Of a stretch of 64,000 bases of DNA, positions 17,615-59,325 are shown piece after piece. Source of the DNA: Bacillota bacterium (GTDB lineage Bacteria > Bacillota > Clostridia > Peptostreptococcales > Anaerovoracaceae); contig JAFSUI010000012.1 in NCBI GenBank assembly GCA_017445315.1, positions 18,690 to 82,689 of the forward strand, in the 5' to 3' direction. Position numbers and translations under genes: made by a program. Every line of letters starts with the position of its first letter. The stretch's first letter is position 1. Below the pieces are notes generated by a model that made no database searches, was not told the origin of the DNA, and was given only the letters and a program-made list of their open reading frames with translations.

Positions 17615-19015
17615 TTAGAATGGTCCAAGCTGAATTGCCTGAGCGACAATTACAAATACGAGACCAACAAGATACTGTACAAGTATGAACTTGATAGCGA
17701 ACTTAGCCCATTTGCTCCATGGAATCTTAGCGAGACCAAGCATAGCCATGAGAGGTCCGGATGTTGGTGTGATAGCATTGGAGATACCGTCACCAAGCTG
17801 GAACGCAATAACTGCTGTCTGACGTGTAACGCCTGTAAGATCTGCAAGAGGTGCAAGAATCGGCATTGTTACACCAGCCTGTCCGGAACCGGATGGAATG
17901 AGGTAGTTCATCAAGCACTGGAAGATGTACATACCAACTGCTGTTACCTGTGAAGGAAGCTTGGTGAGTACGCTTGCAGCTGCGTGGAGGATGGAGTCAA
18001 GGATGTTACCCTGTGTCAGGATCCAAAGAATACCTGTTGCAACACCGACTACCAAAGCGCCTGTAGCGATATCCTGCATGCCGCTTGCCATAGCTTTTCC
18101 GTATCCGTCAAATCCCATCTTGTTGATGATAGCGATTACTACGGACATGATTAGGAAGATAGCTGAGATCTCATGGAAGTACCAACCATACTTGATAACG
18201 CCGAAGATCATTACGCCAACAGTTACGAGGAATGCAAGCATTGAAAGCTTCTTCTTTGTGTCGAATTCCGGAGCATTGGAAGCATCTACAGCTTCTCTGA
18301 GCTTATCCTCTTCATACATTGTTGAGAGTTCCGGATTCTTCTTAATCTTGCTCGCATAACGCATGAGCATGAAGAGCGTAACTGCAAGGTAAACAACCGC
18401 CATAACGAGACGGAAGCCAGATCCTGAGAAAGCAGGAAGCTGTGCGATACCCTGAGCAACACCTACGTTGAACGGGTTAAGAATTGAACAAGCAAATCCG
18501 CCTGCGCAAGCCAAGCTTACCATAGCCTGACCAACCAGTGAGTCAAATCCGCAAGCCAGCGACAGTGCGATGAAGAACGGAATCAGCGGAATCATTTCCT
18601 CTGTTGTACCGATTACAACAGCCATGATAAAGATGATGGTTGTCATAACTGGAATTACAAGGATTTCTTTACCCTTCAGTGCACGAGCGAGAGCCATGAT
18701 TCCGGCTTCCATTGCGCCACTTGCAGAAAGTGTCGCAATTGATGCACCTACTACGAAGATAAAGAAGATAATTCCTGCAGCCTGTTCCATACCACCGTTT
18801 AGCGCTGCAAACAGTGTCATGAGACTTACCGGTGTTCTTTCCACTTCGTGGAATGAGTTAGGATCTACTACCATTCTTCCTGTGCCTGGATCTTCTACAC
18901 GATCATAAACTCCAGGTGGAACAATGTAGGAGAGGATTGCGCATACTAAAATGATTAGCATGAGCAGTGTGAAAACGTGAGGAACTTTAAAACCTCTCTT
19001 TTTCTCTTCTGCCAT
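17615..19015 (-). CDS. YfcC-family carboxylate/amino-acid transporter
   Basis: Integral membrane carrier of the YfcC/DcuC-like group, 466 aa with about 12 predicted helices. It begins with a charged N-terminus (KKRGFKVPHVFTLLM). It has the family-typical IPPGVYDRV near residue 31, a GTTEEMIPLIPFF re-entrant-like segment (about 137) and LIPSGSGQAGVTMPILAPL (about 367), the mirrored tip-loop pattern of ion-coupled carriers. Lies upstream of the threonine aldolase-iadA block, which suggests peptide or amino-acid-derived substrates, but that is an inference. Strong TAGGAGG site and a leader hairpin at 19037-19066. Confidence 0.85.
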   Translation of the reverse strand: MAEEKKRGFKVPHVFTLLMLIILVCAILSYIVPPGVYDRVEDPGTGRMVVDPNSFHEVERTPVSLMTLFAALNGGMEQAAGIIFFIFVVGASIATLSASGAMEAGIMALARALKGKEILVIPVMTTIIFIMAVVIGTTEEMIPLIPFFIALSLACGFDSLVGQAMVSLACAGGFACSILNPFNVGVAQGIAQLPAFSGSGFRLVMAVVYLAVTLFMLMRYASKIKKNPELSTMYEEDKLREAVDASNAPEFDTKKKLSMLAFLVTVGVMIFGVIKYGWYFHEISAIFLIMSVVIAIINKMGFDGYGKAMASGMQDIATGALVVGVATGILWILTQGNILDSILHAAASVLTKLPSQVTAVGMYIFQCLMNYLIPSGSGQAGVTMPILAPLADLTGVTRQTAVIAFQLGDGISNAITPTSGPLMAMLGLAKIPWSKWAKFAIKFILVQYLVGLVFVIVAQAIQLGPF

Positions 19016-48009: not shown

Positions 48010-48960
48010 TTAGAACGTAGCGACCTCAGGCTCGCAAGGAATTGTCGCCTTTGCCGATTTGCAATATAGCACAGGTCCTGCCTCGCCATAGACAGGAGTG
48101 TTTTCTATTTTTATCTCTGCAGTTATCTCTACCCAGCCGCCATGCTTGAGTCTCTTTACATCAGGCCACATGGCAAGAAGACCCGCAAATTGAATATCCT
48201 CAACACAGCATGTCATAACATGCCTACCAAAGACAAAGCCTCCCTCGGGAATCCCTGCACCCATGGCGCATCTGCCTTTTATTTTGACAGTTTTACCGTC
48301 GTATTTTTCGGCCTCGTCATTTACATCACGATACCATTCAGCAAAGGCATCGTCCGGAACTTCTATGACGTCCGCTTCAATATCAAACGGAAGCGGATCT
48401 ACTATTGTATCCGGGATTGCATTATCCGGACCGTATTCATATACAATCTGGTTCTTTCTGTTTGCTACTCTTACGATTTTGTGGAACTCCTGCTTTGCAT
48501 CTTCCGTGAAGTCAGGATTGTCGCAACGATTAAACACAACAAGATCTGCAGTCTTGAGTTTATCAAAGACGAGCTGACGCATATTCTGGTTATAACTTAA
48601 GAATCTTTCGGCATCAGCAAAGGTTGTTTCTTGATATATCACCCAGCCTTCAGGTAGCGATGAGAAAAGCTTATCCATCATCCACATACCATTATATTCT
48701 ATTACAACTCGTTCCACCTTATGTATGAGCTGAAGCTCTGCGAGATGCTCCGCATTTAAATCGGCCTCATCCTCTATACTTTCAATGAATACATTCTTCC
48801 CAAAGAATTCATCGGGATTGTACTCAACCTCGCCCTCCTCACACATAAGAAGCAGGGTGCGTTCTCCTGCGTTGAAGTCGCTCCCTGCCAAGGTTTCCTG
48901 AATAAAAGTTGTCTTACCGCTTTCTAAAAATCCCGTGAATAGATAAACAGGAATCTCCAT
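48010..48960 (-). CDS. COG0523/CobW-like GTPase fused to DUF1980-like domain
   Basis: G3E-family P-loop protein. Walker A GFLESGKTTFIQ (residues 10-21); the guanine-specificity-like motif is NRCDNPD, not NKxD. The GCxCC metal-binding motif of metallochaperone relatives is absent; LLMCEEGEVEYN lies where the switch region should be. From about residue 215 a second domain (GKTVKIKGRCAMGAG, FVFGRHVMTCC, WVEITAEI) resembles the OB-like C-terminal domain of DUF1980/TIGR03943 proteins, often linked to zinc permeases. 316 aa. It stops only 1 base before the longer thioesterase frame opens. Function is probably in metal or cofactor homeostasis; the substrate is unknown. Confidence 0.75.
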   Translation of the reverse strand: MEIPVYLFTGFLESGKTTFIQETLAGSDFNAGERTLLLMCEEGEVEYNPDEFFGKNVFIESIEDEADLNAEHLAELQLIHKVERVVIEYNGMWMMDKLFSSLPEGWVIYQETTFADAERFLSYNQNMRQLVFDKLKTADLVVFNRCDNPDFTEDAKQEFHKIVRVANRKNQIVYEYGPDNAIPDTIVDPLPFDIEADVIEVPDDAFAEWYRDVNDEAEKYDGKTVKIKGRCAMGAGIPEGGFVFGRHVMTCCVEDIQFAGLLAMWPDVKRLKHGGWVEITAEIKIENTPVYGEAGPVLYCKSAKATIPCEPEVATF

Positions 48961-48996: not shown

Positions 48997-50133
48997 CTAA
49001 AGACCAAAGAGTTCTTTGATGGGCTCCTCTTCAATTCCCGCACCGATTACGCAGAGCATACCGGTAGTTGCGGCCGTACCCGTTCTCACGTCGGCCTCAC
49101 CCGGTACATAATCAAAGTGAATCCAGCTTCCATCCTCCGCCTCTACGATACCTTTTGCTCTAAGCACCTGTCCATACTGAGTAAAGTCAGAAAGTTCAGA
49201 GAGAACCTCTTCTATCTGCTCCTTTGTAAACTTATGACTCGTTTCTATGCCAACGCTCTGGAAAACTTCGTCAGCATGATGATGGTGATGATGGTCGTGA
49301 TCGTGGTGGTGATGCTCATGCTCGCAGTGTCCATGCTCATGGTCGCAGTGCTCGTGCTCATGTTCATGCTCATGCTCATGCTCGCAGTGTCCATGCTCAT
49401 GGTCGCAGTGCTCGTGGTCATGCTCATGCTCATGGTCGCAATGCTCGTGATCGTGGTCATGGTGGTGATGCTCGTGCTCACAGTGATCATGCTCGTGCTC
49501 CACCTGTTCAGCAAGACGAGCGAGCTCGCTAGCGATACCGCTCTTCTTCTCCATGGTTTCCAATATTTGTTTTCCTGTCAACTCATCCCACTCGGTTGTG
49601 ATAATCTCAGCGTCCTTATTATGCTCTCTTATGAGTTCGACGCATTGATCAAGCTTCTCCTGAGAAAGTCCCTTGGTATGGCTTAGAACTATTGCGCTTG
49701 CATTCTCAATCTGGTTATTAAAGAACTCGCCAAAGTTCTTCATATACATCTTGGCCTTCTTTGCATCCACAACTGTTGTGAATCCATTAAGCTGAATCTC
49801 GTCGTTATGCATATTCTCAACAGCCAGGATTACGTCGCTGAGCTTTCCTACTCCCGATGGTTCAATAAGAATCCTATCAGGCTTAAACTCTGATATTACC
49901 TTCTCCAGGGCTACCGCAAAATCACCTACGAGAGAGCAGCAGATGCAACCGGAATTCATCTCGTTTATCTGAACGCCCGACTCCTTAAGGAATCCGCCGT
50001 CTATTCCTATGTCGCCGAACTCGTTTTCAATCAAAACCAGCTGCTCGCCCGCATAGGCCTCTTCAATTAACTTCTTGATGAGCGTCGTCTTGCCTGCGCC
50101 CAAAAAACCCGAAAAAATATCTACTTTTGTCAT
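48997..50133 (-). CDS. COG0523 metallochaperone GTPase with long His-rich tract
   Basis: G3E GTPase expected to deliver a transition metal (Zn, Ni or Co). P-loop GFLGAGKTTLIKKL (residues 8-21), IENEFGDIGIDG, the metal motif SGCICCSLVGD (about 66-76), EPSGVGKLSDV, and a HTKGLS-type G4 region. A stretch of about 80 residues (about 210-290) is almost entirely His, Glu, Asp and Cys in EHEHDHCEHEH-like repeats. It is followed by the CobW C-terminal domain (FQSVGIETSHKFTKEQIEEVL, LRAKGIVEAEDGSWIHFDYVPGE). The ATG at 50133 has GGGAGATATGAT; the frame opens further up at 50178. Cys residues in the tract suggest metal storage as well as delivery. Confidence 0.88.
   Translation of the reverse strand: MTKVDIFSGFLGAGKTTLIKKLIEEAYAGEQLVLIENEFGDIGIDGGFLKESGVQINEMNSGCICCSLVGDFAVALEKVISEFKPDRILIEPSGVGKLSDVILAVENMHNDEIQLNGFTTVVDAKKAKMYMKNFGEFFNNQIENASAIVLSHTKGLSQEKLDQCVELIREHNKDAEIITTEWDELTGKQILETMEKKSGIASELARLAEQVEHEHDHCEHEHHHHDHDHEHCDHEHEHDHEHCDHEHGHCEHEHEHEHEHEHCDHEHGHCEHEHHHHDHDHHHHHHADEVFQSVGIETSHKFTKEQIEEVLSELSDFTQYGQVLRAKGIVEAEDGSWIHFDYVPGEADVRTGTAATTGMLCVIGAGIEEEPIKELFGL
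49321..49440. repeat. 60-bp direct repeat in the His-rich coding tract
   Basis: 49321-49380 and 49381-49440 are tandem copies; the first 36 bases of each are identical and the rest diverges slightly. The repeat is in frame (20 codons) and encodes the His/Glu/Asp/Cys tract, so tract length can change by slippage without frameshift. Confidence 0.85.
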
Positions 50134-50208
50134 ATCATATCTCCCATTTCTTATTTCTTCGTTCTTAATTATACCCATCTATCCCAGCAAATAACAATGC
50201 TATTTTGC

Positions 50209-52119
50209 TTATTTTACAACCGCAATCAATATCCAGATAAGAACAGCCGCAACACCTATTGCCGTCATAATCATCGCAAATGAGAAATTGTCCAGCATTG
50301 GATTAATTGCATATTCAACCTCTTTAAGCGCCGAATAAACGTGCCCGTGCTCGGGCCTTCCGTCAACCCTAGGCTTTTCCCTAAATATAGTCTTGCGAAG
50401 CAGTATCAAAACTCCATCCATACTCACCGAGAAGAATGTGGCTACGCCCTTTCCAACTTCAGTAATCCCCCTTGCAATAGGCGCGGTAATCGTATTATTC
50501 GCAAAGAATGCCGCAATCGTGCCACCTATTCCAGGAAGAACTTTTAATAGCACCGGTCTATAAAGCATATCCTCCAAATCAATTTTCTTTGGCCAGAGAT
50601 CCAGGTACTCGTTCTTTCTCATCAGCACCCTTCTCACTATGACCAAGTAAACAAATATGCCTATTCCAATTGAAATGAATGCACCCTTAAGATTAACCAA
50701 TGAGAATGCATGGAAGTGATGGAATACATGTTCACCCGTCATAAACTCTGCAAGTTTTCCGACAATTGCAGGCTGTCCGAGCAAAGGAAGCACGACCGCA
50801 GACAACATAAGAACTACCGAAGAAAGCTTTGTCATCGTATGTGGCTCGTTGTCGTATTCGCTTTGCTTTTCCGGATGCTCCTCTATAAAGATGCAGAAGA
50901 AAAGCTTTAGCATATATGCAACTGTTAGACCACCGGAGAACAGGAACAGCCACTCAATTATCGTGAGCCCAACAGGAAGAAAACCATTAAATGAATTACC
51001 CATAAGCTCCATGTTTAACTCATAGGCCTCGCGCGCAATAACTAGACCTTCATGAAGAAGCGTCTTGCTTATATATCCATTAAAGAAAGGAATACCACCT
51101 ATTCCGACTGCACCGATTAGGAATGGAACGAGCAATAGCGGTTTCTTTCTTCCATATCCGCGAATGTCGTTTAGATTTAGCTTATGTATATTCATAACAA
51201 AGACGCCCGCAGCCATAAATAGCACAAGCTTTATAAGCGAGTGGTTAACCATATGTAGCGCTACGCCGTTATGCGCAAGCTCCATCGCTTCTTCTACGAG
51301 ATGCTCTACCTCATGAGGAAGTCCCTCCGCCTCAAGGAAAGAAATCATAGTCATTGTTCCTATGCCTACAAGAATAAATCCAATCTGCGACATAGATGAA
51401 CACGCAAGAGTCCTCTTTAGATTCACGGAGAAGATCGCGAGCACTGCGCCAAGAGTCATCGTAATGGTGCCCGCAATAAGCACAATCATACCAAAGTCAA
51501 AGGATAATTCCCCTCTTCCCAAGAATCCGGGAACCGCCGTCATAAGAACACCAAAGATTCCGACCTTCGTCAGAATTCCCGAGAGCAAAGCCGACGCCGG
51601 AGACGGAGCAACCGGGTGAGACTTTGGGAGCCATATATGCACAGGGAACATACCCGCCTTGGCACCAAAGCCAATAAGAATGCAGATTCCTGCAGCAAGT
51701 ATCACTCCGCGGTTTGGCGCTGCCATAATCGCATCGTGGAGCTTATCGTATTCAAGAGTTCCAATCTCATGTGACAGAAGCGCAAGTCCCATAAAGAGGA
51801 CAAGACCTCCTATAATCGCTATAAAGAAATACGTCTTCGCGGCGCGTATTGCTTCCTTTGTTTCTTCATGAATTACCCAGACAAAAGAAGTAAGTGAAAG
51901 TATTTCAAAGAATAGGAATGTGGTCATGAGATCTCCTGAGAACATCACACCCTCTGTCGCCAGGAACGTAAGAATCGTAAATGCTCCGTAGCGTTTTAAG
52001 TGCTCCGGCTCATGACGGAAATACTCAAAGGAGAAAAGCGTGGTAAGCGCCCACATCCATATCGCTATCATTCCGTACGTTATGCGGAATCCATCAATTG
52101 TGAAATGTATTCCACTCAT
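50209..52119 (-). CDS. Mrp/Nuo-type antiporter core subunit, fourth copy (636 aa)
   Basis: Proton-conducting transporter of the MrpA/MrpD/NuoL family. Conserved Glu in the TM5 region (FLFFEILSLTSFVWVIHE, about residue 72) and Lys in GFGAKAGMFPVHIWLPKSHPVAPSPASALLSG (split; about 153), with further buried Lys/His in VNHSLIKLVLF (about 290). Compared with the other copies it lacks the first helices and has a long C-terminal extension ending in one more helix (about 605-632) after a hydrophilic loop. Overlaps the previous copy by 4 nt. Last gene of the operon. Confidence 0.85.
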   Translation of the reverse strand: MSGIHFTIDGFRITYGMIAIWMWALTTLFSFEYFRHEPEHLKRYGAFTILTFLATEGVMFSGDLMTTFLFFEILSLTSFVWVIHEETKEAIRAAKTYFFIAIIGGLVLFMGLALLSHEIGTLEYDKLHDAIMAAPNRGVILAAGICILIGFGAKAGMFPVHIWLPKSHPVAPSPASALLSGILTKVGIFGVLMTAVPGFLGRGELSFDFGMIVLIAGTITMTLGAVLAIFSVNLKRTLACSSMSQIGFILVGIGTMTMISFLEAEGLPHEVEHLVEEAMELAHNGVALHMVNHSLIKLVLFMAAGVFVMNIHKLNLNDIRGYGRKKPLLLVPFLIGAVGIGGIPFFNGYISKTLLHEGLVIAREAYELNMELMGNSFNGFLPVGLTIIEWLFLFSGGLTVAYMLKLFFCIFIEEHPEKQSEYDNEPHTMTKLSSVVLMLSAVVLPLLGQPAIVGKLAEFMTGEHVFHHFHAFSLVNLKGAFISIGIGIFVYLVIVRRVLMRKNEYLDLWPKKIDLEDMLYRPVLLKVLPGIGGTIAAFFANNTITAPIARGITEVGKGVATFFSVSMDGVLILLRKTIFREKPRVDGRPEHGHVYSALKEVEYAINPMLDNFSFAMIMTAIGVAAVLIWILIAVVK

Positions 52120-53582
52120 ATCAGGCCCTCCGCAATTTTAGAAATAGCAATAAGTATCGGAGTCGGAAAGAGACCGAGAATAATCTGGCACGCAGTAAAT
52201 GCATGAATTGGAATGAGCATGCGCCATCCACCTTCGTTGCTTTCTTCGAGCCCTTCATAATTATCCGTTCCGACTGAAGGAAAGAACGCTCTAATGCTCA
52301 CGGAGAGCGAATATATTGCACATAGGAACGCAGACAAAATGAGAGCTCCTATTCCTATATACGCAGCAGTACTCGCCTCTTCTATTCCCGCCATGATAAG
52401 TCTCCATTTGGATACAAAGCAGCAAAGAAGCGGAATGCCAACGAGCGAAAGTGCCGATATCGTATAGCAAATGAATGTATGCGGCATATATTTTCCTACG
52501 CCGTTTATATCTGACATATATGCTTTTCCCGTATGCTCCATAAACGACCCGATGCACATAAACAAAGTAATCTTTGTTATGCTGTGGAAAACAAGATGCG
52601 TTGTGCCTGCAATCATCCCTTCCGGAGTCAAAAGCAAAATTCCAAAAAGCATATATGATAAATTACTAACCGTTGAATAAGCAAGTCTTCTTTTTACGTG
52701 TCTCTCTTTAACCGCAATAATCGATGTATAGACCAGCGTGAATGAAGAAAGAACAAGGCAGAAAACTTGCACCCAGCTTCCTTTTATAACATCTGTACCA
52801 AAGCTATAATACGTAATCCTGATTACAGCGAACACACCCGTATTAACAACTGCTACTGCATGAAGAAGCGCGGTAACCGGAGTCGGTGCGCAGGATGCAG
52901 CAGGAAGCCATGCATGGAACGGGAATATAGCAGCCTTGATGCCAAAGCCGAGGAATGCGAGTAAGTAGAACACCTTCCATCCAGGTCCGATTGCGCTTAC
53001 TAGATCTCCTCCGAGCTTAAACTCCCCTGTCGCACCATTTAGAGAAACCATTACAACTGCCGCAAATCCAAGCGCTGCTCCACCAAAGAGATAGGCAGCA
53101 TATTTTCTTGCGGAGAATAGACTCTCGTGATTTTGATAATGTGCCACAAGAGGAAGCGTAGAAATACTAAGCATCTCAAAGAATACAAAAAGTGTAAGCG
53201 GACTTCCGGAGAAACAAACTCCAAGAGTTGCACCGTATGTGAGTATATAGAATCCAAAGAAGGATCTCTGTCTATTGTCGTGCTCCATATACGAGAAGGA
53301 GTATAGAAGCACAATGGGCCACATAAGAGCGACCAAAACAGCATAGAGTTTTCCGAGTCCGTCAAATCCCAGCACAAATTTAAATCCGGGAGCAAAGGTC
53401 ATAAGCGTAACCCAGCTACCCTTTGATATTATTGCAAGCAACAAAACAACTGCGGTAGTTATAAGCGCTACCGTTTCTATGTATATGTGAAGACTCTTGC
53501 TACTCTTGAACGGAATTCTTAAAGCGGCAAGGCCTCCAAACGTCGGTATTAAGATTGCTATTATCAATAGCACTGACGTCAT
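52116..53582 (-). CDS. Mrp/Nuo-type antiporter core subunit, third copy (488 aa)
   Basis: MnhD-like antiporter subunit with about 14 helices. Keeps Glu in FVFFEMLSISTLPLVAHY (about 135), Lys in GFGIKAAIFPFHAWLPAA (about 217) and Lys in HLVFHSITKITLFMC (about 335), the residues that form the proton channel in the family. Overlaps its neighbours by 4 nt on both sides. Confidence 0.85.
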   Translation of the reverse strand: MTSVLLIIAILIPTFGGLAALRIPFKSSKSLHIYIETVALITTAVVLLLAIISKGSWVTLMTFAPGFKFVLGFDGLGKLYAVLVALMWPIVLLYSFSYMEHDNRQRSFFGFYILTYGATLGVCFSGSPLTLFVFFEMLSISTLPLVAHYQNHESLFSARKYAAYLFGGAALGFAAVVMVSLNGATGEFKLGGDLVSAIGPGWKVFYLLAFLGFGIKAAIFPFHAWLPAASCAPTPVTALLHAVAVVNTGVFAVIRITYYSFGTDVIKGSWVQVFCLVLSSFTLVYTSIIAVKERHVKRRLAYSTVSNLSYMLFGILLLTPEGMIAGTTHLVFHSITKITLFMCIGSFMEHTGKAYMSDINGVGKYMPHTFICYTISALSLVGIPLLCCFVSKWRLIMAGIEEASTAAYIGIGALILSAFLCAIYSLSVSIRAFFPSVGTDNYEGLEESNEGGWRMLIPIHAFTACQIILGLFPTPILIAISKIAEGLI

Positions 53583-55078
53583 ACAATTCCTCCAAAGAGT
53601 CCTGCAAGCGAGTTACCAAACAATCCAACGAAAAGTGAAATCATAATCAATCCTATTAACGGAATCCACATCATCGCAGGTGCAAGTTCAAATGGCTTAT
53701 TGCCATCACGCTCTGCTTCTTCGTGATGTTCAGGTTGTTCATATATATGTCCATGACCGAGAGCTCCGCCCGGAAAGAAACCATCTATCACTATCGGGAA
53801 TAAGTATCCCGCAGTGAGAAGCGCTGATATAAGAAGAACTATCGGAGCGACGATTGAGAGGAATCCAACATTCGCACCGAGCGCAGCCTGCGCAAGATGC
53901 CATTTTGATGTGAAACCACCCATCGGCGGAATTCCGACTAGCGACATCGCAGCAAAGAATAAGCACCAAAGAATAATCGGAGATGTCTTTCCTATTCCTC
54001 TTAGTTCTCCAACCCTTCTCTTTTCATATAGATAAATGAATGCGCCGGCACATAGGAAGAGACAGGCTTTTGCTGATGCGTGCTGCATTACCTGAAGAAG
54101 ACTTCCCACGAGACCTTCCTGTGTTAAAAACGCCATGCCGAGCATAACGTATGAGATTTGTGAAATCGTAGAGTAAGCCAATCTTTTCTTTAGGACCTCT
54201 TCTTTAAATGCCATCATTGATCCCATAAAGATTGTTAATAGTGCAATTCCTATCCATGCATACTGCACCCATGTTCCTCTAAGAAAATCTGCTCCTACCG
54301 AATAAAAAACAAATCTAAGGATAACAAGTACTCCGGATTTTGCTATTATTCCGGAGAGAAGCGCAGATGCAGGAGCCGGAGCTATCGGGTGTGCAGTAGG
54401 AAGCCATCCATGCATCGGATACATACCTGCTTTGGTGCCGTAACCGATGATTGCGATAAAGAATGCAAAAAGAAGGACGCTCTGGTTTCCGGATGCTTTG
54501 GCAGCATCTAGAACGCCGCCCTTTACAAATTCCACTTCATCTCCGGCATATCCGTAAACAAAGAATACGCCAAGGAGTCCGAGAAGCGCACCGCCTATTG
54601 AATAGAATAAATATTTTAGACCTGCCGCAACGGATTTATTTGTCTGTTCGTGAAGAACCAGCGGAACCGTGCTAAGAGTCGTAAGTTCAAACGCAAAGTA
54701 AATCGTAACAAGATTTGCAGACGAGCAAACTGCTATTAACGCGCCGAGCGAGATAAAATAGAATGTCATGAACGTCTGTATATGCTCCTCTATTCGCATA
54801 TATATAAATGCGTAGAACAGAGTAAATGTATAGAGAAGAAGAACCGTCGCGAGGAACCACCGTCCCACTATATCCATCCCAAACGCAAAGTTCACCTTTG
54901 GCGACAGCGCAAAGAGGGTAATCGGTTTGGAATAAAACATTGCGAGCAAGGCAAGTATATCCGTAATCACAATGCCTATGATATAAGGCAGTGTCGGCAC
55001 CCTCTCTTTTTTTCGGTACTGGATATATAACCCGGTACCGCAGATTATTGGAAACATAACGGCAATCAGATTTAGCAT
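53579..55078 (-). CDS. Mrp/Nuo-type antiporter core subunit, second copy (499 aa)
   Basis: MnhD-like subunit. Glu in YFAFELTTLSTVPLVLHE (about 131) and Lys in GYGTKAGMYPMHGWLPTAHP (about 214) are kept. The third channel position reads MQHASAKACLFLC (about 327), where Lys is also present. A His/Glu-rich loop (GHGHIYEQPEHHEEAE) lies near residue 450. AGGG precedes the ATG and there is a 29-bp gap to the upstream copy, the only untranslated gap in the operon. Confidence 0.85.
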   Translation of the reverse strand: MLNLIAVMFPIICGTGLYIQYRKKERVPTLPYIIGIVITDILALLAMFYSKPITLFALSPKVNFAFGMDIVGRWFLATVLLLYTFTLFYAFIYMRIEEHIQTFMTFYFISLGALIAVCSSANLVTIYFAFELTTLSTVPLVLHEQTNKSVAAGLKYLFYSIGGALLGLLGVFFVYGYAGDEVEFVKGGVLDAAKASGNQSVLLFAFFIAIIGYGTKAGMYPMHGWLPTAHPIAPAPASALLSGIIAKSGVLVILRFVFYSVGADFLRGTWVQYAWIGIALLTIFMGSMMAFKEEVLKKRLAYSTISQISYVMLGMAFLTQEGLVGSLLQVMQHASAKACLFLCAGAFIYLYEKRRVGELRGIGKTSPIILWCLFFAAMSLVGIPPMGGFTSKWHLAQAALGANVGFLSIVAPIVLLISALLTAGYLFPIVIDGFFPGGALGHGHIYEQPEHHEEAERDGNKPFELAPAMMWIPLIGLIMISLFVGLFGNSLAGLFGGIV

Positions 55079-55107
55079 ATACGCCCTCCCGTTGCTATTC
55101 TAATAAT

Positions 55108-56598
55108 TCACCGGAGCTGAAGTATGCCCAGTGTAATAAGCTCAAAAACTATCATTGGCGCAACGCCGAGTAAGACGTTGGAGCCCAAAAGTCCAATCGA
55201 TGAAACAGCATAATCAAGTTCTGATTTCACCGTGGTTATTTCAGCATCCCCTTCGGGGCGCGAGAAAATCCTAATAACGGTACGCACAAAATAAAGCGAA
55301 TTTAGAACCGCACTTATTGCAAGCGCACAGACGACAACATAGAATACTATTTTTGAATTTGCGTCCGACGCCGCTACTGTTATAAATAGCTTTGATGAGA
55401 ATCCCGCAAAAATCGGAATGCCCACCATTGAAAAAGCACAAGCCGTAAATACAATTCCTTCAAGTGGTCTTTTTAATCCGCTTCCCTGTAAGTCATGGAA
55501 TACCAAACTTCCATTTGATACCTCCGCAAGTCTTGGCGTTGTGAGGAACAGAAGCGACTTTGTTACAGAATGCGCTATGAGATGGAAGATTGCCGCAGCA
55601 TAAGCGGAATCAAATCCCATTCCAAGAGCCATGAATATATATCCGATTTGAGCAGCGGAAGAAAGCGCAACCATCCTGTTTATATTGTTCTCCCTTATTG
55701 CCGCAAGCGATCCAATAATCATGGCGCAAATGCCCAGCACAAGAAGTATCGTCTGTATCGGAAGCTCAACCAAAAGTTCTGGACCAACGACTCTATAATA
55801 AATCTTGATGAGGAGGAATATATACGCCTTTGATATTACCGAGCTCATAATTGAAGCTGTAGTAGGTGTTGACCATCCATACGTATCCGGCATCCAGAAG
55901 CAGAACGGAAACAGTCCGCTCTTGATTGCAAGACCGAGAGTCATAACGCCAAGCGAAAAAGCAAGCGATAGTTTCATCTCAGGATTCTGCGCTAAGAGAC
56001 TGAGCGCTTCCGAAAGCGGAACCATAAGAAGATGCCCCGTCATACTGTAAAGCAAGATTACTCCGAGCAGGAAGAATCCTGACCCAAAGAGATTGATTAC
56101 CATATATCTTATTGCGGCAAGAGTAGTTTTTCCAACCTCTCTTACAATCATTAGACCGCAGCTCGCCATTGTCAGTATCTCTAGGAATACATATCCTGAG
56201 AATATATCGTTTGTGAATACGAGCGCACATACCGCAGCAACCAATAAATCAAGAAGAACAAAGTATAGATTCTCCTTGCTGTCCTCTATCTCGTCTTTGA
56301 TATAGCGTCTTCCGCCGATAAGCGAGAATAATATAACTATCAGGAATGCAAGAAGCACCAAACATTCAAGCGCGCCTGCTCTTATTTCATTTCCCCATGG
56401 CGCGGGAAACTCTCCCATGGAATATGTGAAGCTTCCGTTTAACGCCGTATGGCGAATCAGCATTATATCCATCAGAATTAAAACGCCAATCCAAGCCTCG
56501 CTAATAATCAACGCGTTCTTCTTAAGTAGTACCGTAAGCGCCGCAAGGAAGAGGCTCCCTATTATCATGAAAAGTGGAAGGTTCCAGACAAAACTCAT
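55108..56598 (-). CDS. Mrp/Nuo-type antiporter core subunit, first copy (496 aa)
   Basis: MnhD-like subunit. Glu in FLEILTMASCGLMIVRE (about 133), Lys in LAIKSGLFPFCFWMPDTYG (about 225) and Lys in HLIAHSVTKSLLFL (about 345) are conserved. The most divergent of the four copies around WMPDTYGWSTPTTAS, where PTPVTAL-type sequence is usual. Overlaps mnhC by 4 nt. Confidence 0.85.
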   Translation of the reverse strand: MSFVWNLPLFMIIGSLFLAALTVLLKKNALIISEAWIGVLILMDIMLIRHTALNGSFTYSMGEFPAPWGNEIRAGALECLVLLAFLIVILFSLIGGRRYIKDEIEDSKENLYFVLLDLLVAAVCALVFTNDIFSGYVFLEILTMASCGLMIVREVGKTTLAAIRYMVINLFGSGFFLLGVILLYSMTGHLLMVPLSEALSLLAQNPEMKLSLAFSLGVMTLGLAIKSGLFPFCFWMPDTYGWSTPTTASIMSSVISKAYIFLLIKIYYRVVGPELLVELPIQTILLVLGICAMIIGSLAAIRENNINRMVALSSAAQIGYIFMALGMGFDSAYAAAIFHLIAHSVTKSLLFLTTPRLAEVSNGSLVFHDLQGSGLKRPLEGIVFTACAFSMVGIPIFAGFSSKLFITVAASDANSKIVFYVVVCALAISAVLNSLYFVRTVIRIFSRPEGDAEITTVKSELDYAVSSIGLLGSNVLLGVAPMIVFELITLGILQLR

Positions 56599-56978
56599 AT
56601 TCTGTCCTCCTTCTCTTTTTGGATAAGCCTATAGACCTCGTCCATGTCCAGGGTGTGATATTTTTTATACAGTCTAATCGAAAGCGAAAGCATAACCGCA
56701 GTAACCGAAACAGATACTACGATTCCCGTGAGAACAAGTCCTGCAGGTATTGGATTGACATATTGAGATGCATCCGTTACCCCGTCAACTATTATCGGAG
56801 CCTTTCTTCCCTCAACGTAACCTAAAGACGTCAGGAATAAGAATAGACCTGTATCCATTATGTTAAGGCCGATAATCTTACGGATTAAATTTCTTTGGAA
56901 GATTAGCGTCGCAAATCCTATCGCAAAGAGGATTATTGCTATTGCCTCCTGATAATTGTTGAGAAGCATATCAAGCAT
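56595..56978 (-). CDS. mnhC: MnhC/MrpC subunit (NuoK-like)
   Basis: 127 aa, three membrane helices with the NuoK-type pattern: FATLIFQRNLIRKIIGLNIMDTGLFLFL (split; about residues 20-48), then DALPPALVLTGIV-like VNPIPAGLVLTGIVVSVSVTAV (about 75-97). It overlaps mnhB by 8 nt and the first antiporter core gene by 4 nt. In Mrp complexes MrpC packs against MrpD. Confidence 0.85.
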   Translation of the reverse strand: MLDMLLNNYQEAIAIILFAIGFATLIFQRNLIRKIIGLNIMDTGLFLFLTSLGYVEGRKAPIIVDGVTDASQYVNPIPAGLVLTGIVVSVSVTAVMLSLSIRLYKKYHTLDMDEVYRLIQKEKEDRI

Positions 56979-57882
56979 TTCCTATCCCTCCTCTCCTGAA
57001 AAGAGAATAGAAGCCGTACATGGTGCATGCAACCACAAGACCAACAGCGATGTTCAGCGGAAGTATAAGCCCCGCAGAGAGAATCGCTCCCGGTATTCCC
57101 TTTGGAATAGGATTGTGAATTCCATTAGCACCCATAAGGAATACAAAGCATTTGGATATGCTATAGAACCCAAGCGCAAAGAAAGAAATCAAATTCATTC
57201 TCTTATATGTCAGAATCGTATCCGCCTTGGAAAAGCCCTGCGAAGACGAAAGAATAATCAGTCCCGCACCTATTATTGCGCCTCCCGAGAAGCCGCCGCC
57301 CGGAGATATATGTCCGTTAAGAACAACGTATATTCCAAATACCATTATGCATGGAACCAGGATAAGACCAACGGATCTTAGGATAGAATCTCCCGAAGTA
57401 TCAAAATATAAATCCGTCTCTTTTTTCTTATCCTGACGAAGAAGAACCGTTGAACATATCAGAGCCGTGAAGAGCACAAATGATTCACCCAGCGTATCAA
57501 ATGCACGGTAGTCAAGAATCATTCCCGCAACAACATTTACCGCACCTGTTTCCTCAATCGTCTTTTCTATATATCTATTTGCGACCTCGTCATAAGCAGG
57601 ATTTGCCTTTCCAAATTCCGGGAGGTGCGCAACCACATAGAGCATCACAAGAGCAAAGATAATGCAGCTAACAACAGCAAGAACGCGATAGAGAACGATA
57701 AACTCATTACGCTTCTTCTCTACCTTGACTTCTGTATCTGGGTTTTCCTCAAGTGAATGCTCCCAAACCTTTTCATTTTCTTTTACTTCTTCCCTTGTGG
57801 CATCGGGAGCCTTTTCCGTTTCAAGAAAATCTTCCATGCCCGAGAGTTCATCAGAAAACCATTTACGGAGAATCTCTTTCAT
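56971..57882 (-). CDS. mnhB: MnhB with fused MbhE-like N-terminal part
   Basis: 303 aa. A charged N-terminus of about 60 residues is followed by a helix (YRVLAVVSCIIFALVMLYVVA). An MbhE-like segment (VVAGMILDYRAFDTLGESFVLFTALICSTVLL, read in two parts, about 115-145) is usually found at the C-terminus of MrpA. The MnhB domain follows (SVGLILVPCIMVFGIYVVLNGHISPGGGFSGG, about 170-202, with the family PGGGFSGG). So the end of MrpA has moved into MrpB here. Overlaps the neighbouring frames by 4 and 8 nt. Confidence 0.82.
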   Translation of the reverse strand: MKEILRKWFSDELSGMEDFLETEKAPDATREEVKENEKVWEHSLEENPDTEVKVEKKRNEFIVLYRVLAVVSCIIFALVMLYVVAHLPEFGKANPAYDEVANRYIEKTIEETGAVNVVAGMILDYRAFDTLGESFVLFTALICSTVLLRQDKKKETDLYFDTSGDSILRSVGLILVPCIMVFGIYVVLNGHISPGGGFSGGAIIGAGLIILSSSQGFSKADTILTYKRMNLISFFALGFYSISKCFVFLMGANGIHNPIPKGIPGAILSAGLILPLNIAVGLVVACTMYGFYSLFRRGGIGNA

Positions 57883-58148
57883 CCTTGATCCTCCTCGTCA
57901 TCTTTGTCTAGCTTTCTGAATCTTCTCAGGGTCAGGAAGAATAATATGCTTGTTACTCCTGCGCCGACCGCTGCCTCTGTCACAGCAAGATCCGGCGCCT
58001 GCATGAGCGCCCATATTATCGCCATGATAATGCTGTAAGACATAAAGATAATAACCGCAGGAAGAAGCTTCCTACTTAGGTTAACACTGACCGCACATAC
58101 CAAAAGGAGAAGAAGTAGAATAAGTTTAAAGATTTCAATCGTTGTCAT
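57879..58148 (-). CDS. MbhD-like DUF4040 subunit
   Basis: 89 aa, three helices, with APDLAVTEAAVGAGVTSILFFL (split; about residues 50-72), the DUF4040/MbhD signature that normally lies inside the C-terminal part of MrpA. It ends in a charged KLDKDDEEDQ tail. Overlaps mnhG by 14 nt and mnhB by 4 nt. Confidence 0.82.
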   Translation of the reverse strand: MTTIEIFKLILLLLLLVCAVSVNLSRKLLPAVIIFMSYSIIMAIIWALMQAPDLAVTEAAVGAGVTSILFFLTLRRFRKLDKDDEEDQG

Positions 58149-58467
58149 CTACATCCTCCCTTCTCATATGTTCATCAAGTGAGTCGTCCATATAGTATTC
58201 AATCTGCCCGATAAAATGAGTGGCAACGGGAGATGTGCACCACATAAAAACAAGAACGAGTATAATCTTTAGAATAACCAAAGGCTGACCCATGCCAATT
58301 ATTATGGCAAGCGCAGCCAAAAATACGCCAAGCGTATCACCGATACCCGCTGAATGTATCCTGTTCATTATAAAATCAAATCTATAGTTTCCGAGAACGG
58401 CAGACGCTATAGCAGCAAGAGAACCTATTAAAAGCAAAGCCGTAAGCCAGAATCTAACCCACTCCAT
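58135..58467 (-). CDS. mnhG: MnhG/MrpG subunit
   Basis: 110 aa, three helices. Family motif YRFDFIMNRIHSAGIGDTLGVFLAALAIII (about residues 28-57) and CTSPVATHFIG (about 78). Acidic C-terminal tail. Shares one base with mnhF. Confidence 0.87.
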   Translation of the reverse strand: MEWVRFWLTALLLIGSLAAIASAVLGNYRFDFIMNRIHSAGIGDTLGVFLAALAIIIGMGQPLVILKIILVLVFMWCTSPVATHFIGQIEYYMDDSLDEHMRREDVDDND

Positions 58468-58751
58468 CAGCGATCCCCCTTCTTTCTAATATAGACAGAA
58501 GCAAAGATCAGCGTGGATACAAAGCTGATTAATGCATAGATGATTGCAACATCCGTGAGATATGCTTCATCAAGAAGCGCACCGAGAATCAAAAATGCAA
58601 CCACAACCATGGTGTTTATCATATTGACAGAAAGAATTCTATCAGTGATTTGCGGTCCTTTGATTGACCGATAAATCATAATCGCTATCAGAATCGAAAT
58701 AACGAGAAGTGCTAAAGAGTATAAGGCCTGATATGCTTGTTCTACACTCAT
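58467..58751 (-). CDS. mnhF: MnhF/MrpF subunit
   Basis: 94 aa, three helices, with RSIKGPQITDRILSVNMINTMVV (read in parts, about residues 28-50) matching the GPTxxDRxLAxD pattern of MrpF, then ALLDEAYLTDVAIIYALISFVST. Overlaps mnhE by 4 nt. Confidence 0.87.
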   Translation of the reverse strand: MSVEQAYQALYSLALLVISILIAIMIYRSIKGPQITDRILSVNMINTMVVVAFLILGALLDEAYLTDVAIIYALISFVSTLIFASVYIRKKGDR

Positions 58752-59206
58752 CCCTTGACCCTCCTTAAGAGCTGAATAAAAGATGACTCTTCTATCCCCT
58801 CTGCATATTCCGGTCTTAGGCAGTGAACCACAAGCCTATCGCCCTCCTGATGTACAGTAAACGTCCCCGGCGTAAGTGTAATCGAGTTGGCAAGAAGCAC
58901 ATTTGAAAATTCACCCTCAAGTCCCGAGTGGAATTCAACCATAACAGGATCAGGCTTCTCCTCTTTGGACCACACCAATTTGATGACCTGAAAGGCAGCC
59001 TTGAAGATTTCCAATATCAAATTACCCGCATACATTAAAAGCAAGGGAAAATTACGAATGATTTTTTTGTCGGTTGTTGCCGGATATCCGAGGGCTTTAT
59101 AAATCAGCATCGATATACCCACGCTGATAAGACAGCCTATTATCAAAATCTCCGGCGTGATTCTCCCATTGAAAATCACCCAAATCAGCAAAAAAAATAT
59201 AAACAT
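58748..59206 (-). CDS. mnhE: MnhE/MrpE subunit, likely leaderless start
   Basis: 152 aa from the ATG at 59206 (MFIFFLLIWVIFNGRIT). Family features: two N-terminal helices, ILEIFKAAFQVIKLVW (about 85) and the soluble MrpE end LANSITLTPGTFTVHQEGDRLVVHCL (read in parts, about 110-135). The longer frame runs back to 59308 into the hsp20 terminator and is rejected. There is no ribosome site before 59206. Instead the -10 TATAAT ends 6 nt upstream, so transcription should begin at or next to the A of ATG. First gene of the operon. Confidence 0.85.
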   Translation of the reverse strand: MFIFFLLIWVIFNGRITPEILIIGCLISVGISMLIYKALGYPATTDKKIIRNFPLLLMYAGNLILEIFKAAFQVIKLVWSKEEKPDPVMVEFHSGLEGEFSNVLLANSITLTPGTFTVHQEGDRLVVHCLRPEYAEGIEESSFIQLLRRVKG

Positions 59207-59300: not shown

Positions 59301-59325
59301 ACTCTCATTACGATTACTTTCTGAA

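Follow-up and report, generated by a model that had tools for sequence, protein, structure and literature searches.

The 64,000-nucleotide stretch analysed here (the window; positions 18,690 to 82,689 of contig JAFSUI010000012.1, from a Bacillota bacterium of the family Anaerovoracaceae) carries an Mrp-type operon with four separate antiporter-core subunits. Our analysis shows that this operon is genuine, old and conserved, and that, judging by the genomes searched, it stands alone. On sequence evidence, its probable product is a cation/proton antiporter of the stand-alone group 3 Mrp type, with a core like that of the Pyrococcus MBS and MBH complexes and with the four subunits arranged as a row of proton channels, which would carry out secondary exchange of H+ and Na+. 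What is new is that an Mrp free of redox subunits has four modules, that these are conserved, and that such a gain occurred on more than one occasion; the system is a variant of group 3 Mrp and not a new kind of system.

The operon lies on the minus strand (59206 to 50209) and comprises ten complete genes, each of which matches its expected Pfam family over the cut-off. Their order is MNHE, MrpF_PhaF, PhaG_MnhG_YufB, MbhD, MbhE joined to MnhB, Oxidored_q2 and four Proton_antipo_M proteins, which we name D1 to D4 in operon order. The first-pass annotation of the window, made from the sequence alone, had placed ten genes here, and this stands. Its description of the genes as tightly overlapping needs one correction, as the overlaps are short but D1 and D2 lie 29 bases apart (55079-55107). 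Pfam reports no MrpA frame in the operon, with MbhD free and MbhE fused to MnhB, and no Proton_antipo_M match beyond D1 to D4 in the genome of the window (77% complete). Together with the trees described below, this bears out the earlier claim of four antiporter-core subunits and no intact MrpA. In NCBIfam, D1, D2 and D3 score best against subunit D models and D4 against hydrogenase 4 subunit B, all far under cut-off.

The make-up of the operon was followed at 80 loci (numbered L), the best 80 of 589 matches obtained when named genome contigs were scanned with an alignment of D3 relatives, so the resulting counts measure conservation and not prevalence. The antiporter genes, labelled at each locus by best phmmer hit, read D1-D2-D3-D4 at 61 of the 80, a survey of gene order in relatives being one of the checks proposed in the first-pass annotation. 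Of the other 19 loci, 18 reach a contig end and the remaining one, L060, has D3 split over two frames. At four of these 18, the contig end cannot account for the departure: L073 has D4 in two frames, L087 shows no D4 within 10 kb past D3, L088 shows no D2 in the 1.6 kb ahead of D3, and L097 is without a separate D3 and has a 925-amino-acid (aa) frame labelled D4. The MbhE-MnhB fusion is likewise found at 61 of the 80 loci, with B alone at a contig end in L050 and the region not shown at 18; MbhD is without a separate call at some loci, and F, G or C at a few. Record titles of the four-module loci are mostly Lachnospiraceae, Oscillospiraceae and unplaced Clostridia, several of them titled from gut or rumen, and the carriers include Hungatella hathewayi WAL-18680 (L063, a named isolate genome) and Butyricicoccus pullicaecorum ET57 (L046). 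Of 291 genomes sampled across the class, at least 8 carry a cluster of four antiporters among the matches listed, six of the window's type and two of another. Within the window's genus, 4 of 13 genomes have four modules, one has five, contig ends truncate the operon in two (which show D1-D2 and D1-D2-D3) and six have none, three of the latter being at least 96% complete with 1% contamination. The operon is therefore patchy in occurrence and stable in make-up.

A tree of 100 rows and a careful tree of 56 rows address the origin of the additional module. Placement by tree covers only the window, ten four-module loci, the five-module locus L007 and five more loci, the labels elsewhere being phmmer assignments. 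D1, D2 and D4 each form one clade (100/99 or better), as does the four-module D3 (100/98). The D1 of the window clusters with the D1 of three-module operons, and D4 groups with the three-module D4 (each 100/99). D2 adjoins D3 (83/95), and a wider clade (100/99) unites both with the only D3 that three-module operons have and with the first MrpD-like subunit of the rhizobial complex I of Pararhizobium. The simplest history would be that D2 and D3 arose by duplication of the middle antiporter of a three-module group 3 Mrp. D2 and D3 are each a supported clade spanning Lachnospiraceae, Oscillospiraceae and Butyricicoccaceae records; in the same simplest history, the duplication and the MbhE-B fusion would predate the split of the Lachnospiraceae and Oscillospiraceae copies. 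The possibility that one copy is the N-terminal part of MrpA was rejected, since MrpA clusters with NuoL (100/98), MrpD stands separate, and none of D1 to D4 is placed with MrpA. An approximately unbiased (AU) test also rejects trees in which MrpA is joined to D4 (p 1.4e-5) or to D2+D3 (p 3.5e-7); D1 forms its own clade and stands outside this test. The tree that the first-pass annotation had named as a check on its own reading therefore did not overturn it.

Modules were gained at least twice. In L116 (10060-11508) and L117 (5755-7014), from another family of the same class, the fourth antiporter lies between D3 and D4, is on its own long branch and has a different origin, and the fifth module of L007 derives from the D1 line. 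The channel residues are kept in the fourth antiporter of both L116 and L117; MbhE and B are separate in L116, and MbhE is without a call in L117. L007 itself (G003:C38, 9090-17359) comes from a congener of the window and has five antiporter-core genes in one operon, again with the channel residues kept.

Channel residues were located by alignment to E. coli NuoM and NuoL at 60 loci (L006, L010, L011 and 57 of the 80). The Glu of transmembrane helix 5 (TM5) and the Lys residues of TM7 and TM12 are present at all 60 for each of D1 to D4, and in the window. The TM8 Lys is kept in D1 and D4 at 60/60, in D2 at 59/60 and in D3 at 42/60. The ratios of nonsynonymous to synonymous substitution rates (dN/dS) against the nearest relative are 0.13 (D1), 0.08 (D2), 0.07 (D3) and 0.06 (D4); these figures are rough because dS is 1.3-2.2, and those against a second relative, L006, were mostly saturated and were set aside. 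The four copies are old and, from their sequences, look constrained.

The path for the cation looks largely intact and MBH-like. MbhD Glu58, invariant in 54/54 sequences, lines up with 6cfw_D Glu69 when positions are counted on the printed alignment; the accessible text of PMC7419157 equates this position with the essential MrpA Glu706. (Papers given by PMC number are drawn on here through their accessible parts.) In the C subunit, Asn39 and Asp42, the latter kept in 58/58, align with MbhG Asn34 and Asp37, which the same source names with His41 as possible cation ligands. MrpF Asp37, the likely counterpart of the cation-path Asp of MrpF, is found in 48/50, and MrpE Pro113 and His128 in 55/57 and 57/57, respectively.

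The operon holds no hydrogenase, NuoB/C/D/I or ferredoxin gene, as the first-pass annotation had stated, and no redox partner of the kind that it advised seeking elsewhere was found among the carriers by searches for NuoB and NuoH. NuoB and NuoH are each absent from all six genus genomes that carry the operon (five of them below 90% complete; NuoD and NuoI without a separate search), NuoB is absent from all 13 genomes of the genus, and it is absent from 9 of 13 genomes of the order with annotated three-antiporter operons. As most genus genomes are incomplete, single absences of NuoB are weak evidence, but the absences together are not. Elsewhere in the family, 12 of 24 genomes have NuoB. In the only one of these checked (L113, 3319-8362), it sits in an Ech-like hydrogenase cluster with an antiporter, NuoH and a NuoD-like gene. 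A linked redox or regulatory partner was also sought among 446 frames flanking 60 four-module loci and was rejected, as no family is common to more than five loci, many of the flanks being short.

Based on these observations, a cation, most likely Na+, would pass through E/F/G/B and MbhD/MbhE and meet protons at the MbhD-C-D1 junction. D1, D2, D3 and D4 would line up as proton channels beside the Na+ part, which would occupy one end, with D4 last and its tail holding a lateral helix. With no redox partner, the complex would work by secondary exchange, coupling the proton gradient to that of Na+. In keeping with this reading, the genomes of all six carriers encode primary pumps, namely an RnfD/NqrB-type subunit of an Rnf/Nqr-type pump and a membrane pyrophosphatase; three also encode an OadB-like subunit. 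We infer that gene order mirrors the physical order of the modules and that all four belong to one complex; the cation, the direction and the ratio proposed here are likewise inferred.

Several observations weigh against this reading. The window's D3 has Asn in place of the TM8 Lys, as do 18 of 60 other D3 sequences, and the earlier statement that all four subunits keep the channel Glu and Lys accordingly holds at TM5, TM7 and TM12 and fails here. This loss need not mean lost function, because NuoL conserves only a histidine, presumably in place of the TM8 Lys (PMC7419157, accessible part), and D3 has a His at the place of NuoL His254 at 60/60 loci, where D2 has Ser. The window's D4 is about 68 residues short at its N-terminus, lacking about two helices, with 8 residues before a reference Asp compared with 76 in the three-module relative L018; its start overlaps the D3 stop, and a similarly short N-terminus (<45 residues before this Asp) is seen in 14 of 80 aligned D4 rows. 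The place of MbhG His41 is occupied by Phe in the window's C subunit. Finally, extra modules in complex I are accompanied in some cases by an insert in the lateral helix (PMC9040806, in part), and the D4 tail, delimited from sequence as the part expected to hold this helix, shows no lengthening, with medians of 121 residues in four-module and 123 in three-module operons (66 and 11 rows, p 0.60). The part of D4 before the tail has medians of 169 and 157 residues, respectively, a descriptive comparison only, and measures 218 and 240 in L116 and L117, whose three-module relative has 174, a sample too small for use.

The strongest alternative, to which we give roughly a quarter of our belief, is that the operon supplies two kinds of complex on a shared E-C core, D1-D2-D4 and D1-D3-D4, acting as two gears or with two ion preferences. 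As sister paralogues of one three-module subunit, D2 and D3 could each fill the same slot, and the absence of a longer D4 tail also speaks for this arrangement. The two also differ in their residues, D3 combining the invariant NuoL-type His with frequent loss of the TM8 Lys, and D2 the near-invariant Lys with Ser at the His site. However, the genes are tightly linked in an order fixed at 61 of the 80 loci, and the fourth module of different origin, which lies between D3 and D4 in the two second-family genomes (L116 and L117), looks like a link added and not an alternative.

A four-module antiporter that carries K+ or Ca2+ rather than Na+ is less likely again. Some Mrp antiporters do carry these ions (PMC5703873, in part), but two of the three ligand places in the C subunit and the MbhD Glu are as in MBH (compared with the accessible part of PMC7419157). 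All six carriers have an ATPase rotor gene. In all five rotor proteins read, from five of the six carriers, there is a TQxxYG motif plus Q and E, which we take to be the Na+-binding type, again at odds with a K+ or Ca2+ antiporter.

That the operon encodes the membrane arm of a redox complex (a hydrogenase, ferredoxin:NAD or sulfur reductase) with its electron-transfer genes elsewhere is very improbable. D1, D3, MbhD, C and the MbhE-B fusion are closest to MBS (6u8y) among solved structures, D2 and D4 are closest to MBH (6cfw_H), and a genome 77% complete could hide such genes, but the absences of NuoB and NuoH from the six carriers and of NuoB from the 13 genus genomes and from 9 of 13 order genomes with three-antiporter operons, and the lack of a widely common flanking gene, argue against it. 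An ordinary Mrp with recent decaying duplicates, which the loss of the TM8 Lys in one subunit and of the first helices in another might suggest, is refuted by the supported D2 and D3 clades across three families, the dN/dS of 0.06-0.13 and the invariant TM5, TM7 and TM12 residues.

The preferred reading, a stand-alone four-module antiporter, places the operon within known diversity. Group 3 Mrp is defined in the accessible text of PMC8415708 by the lack of mrpA, with mrpD sometimes in multiple copies, and the operon likewise lacks MrpA and has E, F, G, B and C, each over its Pfam cut-off. It does not have the MrpA of groups 1 and 2, with an N-terminal antiporter domain and a fused MbhD/MbhE-like C-terminal part, and the carriers searched do not have the NuoB and NuoH of the MBH/MBS redox module or of complex I, including its 2M and green forms. 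The membrane arm of MBS is matched by a fused MbhE-MbhF(B), called MbsE in PMC8415708 (in part), and a free MbhD. A layout unlike all previous schemes is therefore unsupported, as the same source describes both multiple mrpD without mrpA and the MbsE fusion. To speak of redistributed MrpA pieces is misleading, since MbhD and MbhE are already separate in MBH and in three-module relatives.

Among individual systems, the stand-alone group 3 Mrp of Pyrococcus furiosus (mrpEFGBB'CD; PMC8415708, in part) has no mrpA or energy-input module either and follows the order E-F-G-MbhD/E-B-C-D, but has one D and fuses MbhD to MbhE, whereas the window has four D and fuses MbhE to B. Pyrococcus MBS, the top solved match for D1, D3, MbhD, the fusion and C, and MBH have a redox module and two and one antiporter subunits, respectively. 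The operons of group 1 and 2 Mrp (6z16, 7qru, 7d3u) share B, C, E, F, G and the MrpD-type fold family with the window, but their antiporter subunits are MrpD and an MrpA with a fused C-terminal piece alone. The clostridial three-module group 3 operon of Peptoclostridium acidaminophilum (EAL2_RS12435-RS12475) reads E-F-G-MbhD-MbhE-B-C followed by counterparts of D1, D3 and D4; unlike the window, it is without D2 and keeps MbhE and B separate. Haloarchaea have clusters with three annotated MrpD. Surplus antiporter genes are also described, in the accessible parts of the sources, in cyanobacterial Aphanothece (mrpCD1D2EFGAB, two mrpD; PMC5703873) and in Ca. Nitrospira alkalitolerans (two extra NuoM/NuoL-like genes; PMC7784846), but in both MrpA is listed and order and number differ. 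Complex I has four pumps in Nitrospira 2M and rhizobial green complex I and five in Manganitrophaceae (PMC9040806, in part); these are redox-driven, with NuoB-type subunits and, in some, the lateral-helix insert, none of which is seen in the window's operon. No description of a four-module operon was found in the literature searched, which left most subscription papers outside its reach.

Table 1. Genes of the four-module Mrp-type operon, in operon order (window positions)
Feature	Position	Strand	Length (aa)	Evidence
MrpE/MbhA-like subunit	58748..59206	-	152	PF01899 E 2e-28
MrpF subunit	58467..58751	-	94	PF04066 E 1.1e-12
MrpG subunit	58135..58467	-	110	PF03334 E 3e-16
Free MbhD (C-terminal MrpA piece)	57879..58148	-	89	PF13244 E 5e-21
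MbhE-MnhB fusion	56971..57882	-	303	PF20501 + PF04039 in single frame; top PDB match 6u8y_E (MBS complex)
MrpC/NuoK-like subunit	56595..56978	-	127	PF00420 E 9e-23; top PDB match 6u8y_G
D1 antiporter-core subunit	55108..56598	-	496	PF00361 E 1.7e-44; top PDB match 6u8y_H
D2 antiporter-core subunit, the added module	53579..55078	-	499	PF00361 E 2.5e-56; top PDB match 6cfw_H
D3 antiporter-core subunit	52116..53582	-	488	PF00361 E 3.6e-48; top PDB match 6u8y_H
D4 antiporter-core subunit, long C-terminal tail	50209..52119	-	636	PF00361 E 1.6e-47; top PDB match 6cfw_H

For the MrpE-like gene (Table 1), an in-frame ATG upstream at 59308 would lengthen the protein by 34 aa. Thirty bases past D4 begins a CobW-type protein with a long His/Asp/Glu/Cys-rich repeat (48997-50178, minus strand), followed by a second CobW with a DUF1980_C domain (48010-48960). 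Sigma-54 activators with PAS domains lie just upstream of the three-module operons at the two loci tested, L012 (2452-4428) and L018 (3906-5906), and frames of similar size occupy the same place in L015, L016, L021 and L022. D1 is split over two frames in the three-module operon of L021 (G046), which has two additional D4-like pieces, and an antiporter match there with internal stop codons is a decaying copy. Another Mrp-like type, found in L013, L014, L017, L019, L020 and L023, reads E-F-G-(MbhD)-MbhE-B-C-D1 followed by long X1 and X2 subunits (or D1b and X2); of six X rows measured, five have a short tail of 44-45 residues past the YRP motif.

With four channels per cation path, an H+:Na+ ratio above that of a two-channel Mrp would be possible, and a weak proton gradient could then support a steep Na+ gradient. 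It is tempting to speculate, though we hold this only tentatively, that a redox-free Mrp whose extra channels were gained at least twice, reaching five in one species, acts as a step-up exchanger for an anaerobe with a weak proton gradient, in which several H+ per Na+ keep a steep Na+ gradient for transporters and for the, possibly Na+-linked, ATPase. The coupling mechanism of these systems is called unknown in the abstract of PMC7419157. Natural antiporters that do without a redox arm have one, three, four and perhaps five separate channel subunits; along this series the exchange ratio could be measured directly as a function of module number, which bears on how the proton channels of complex I and Mrp are coupled among themselves and to the ion path.

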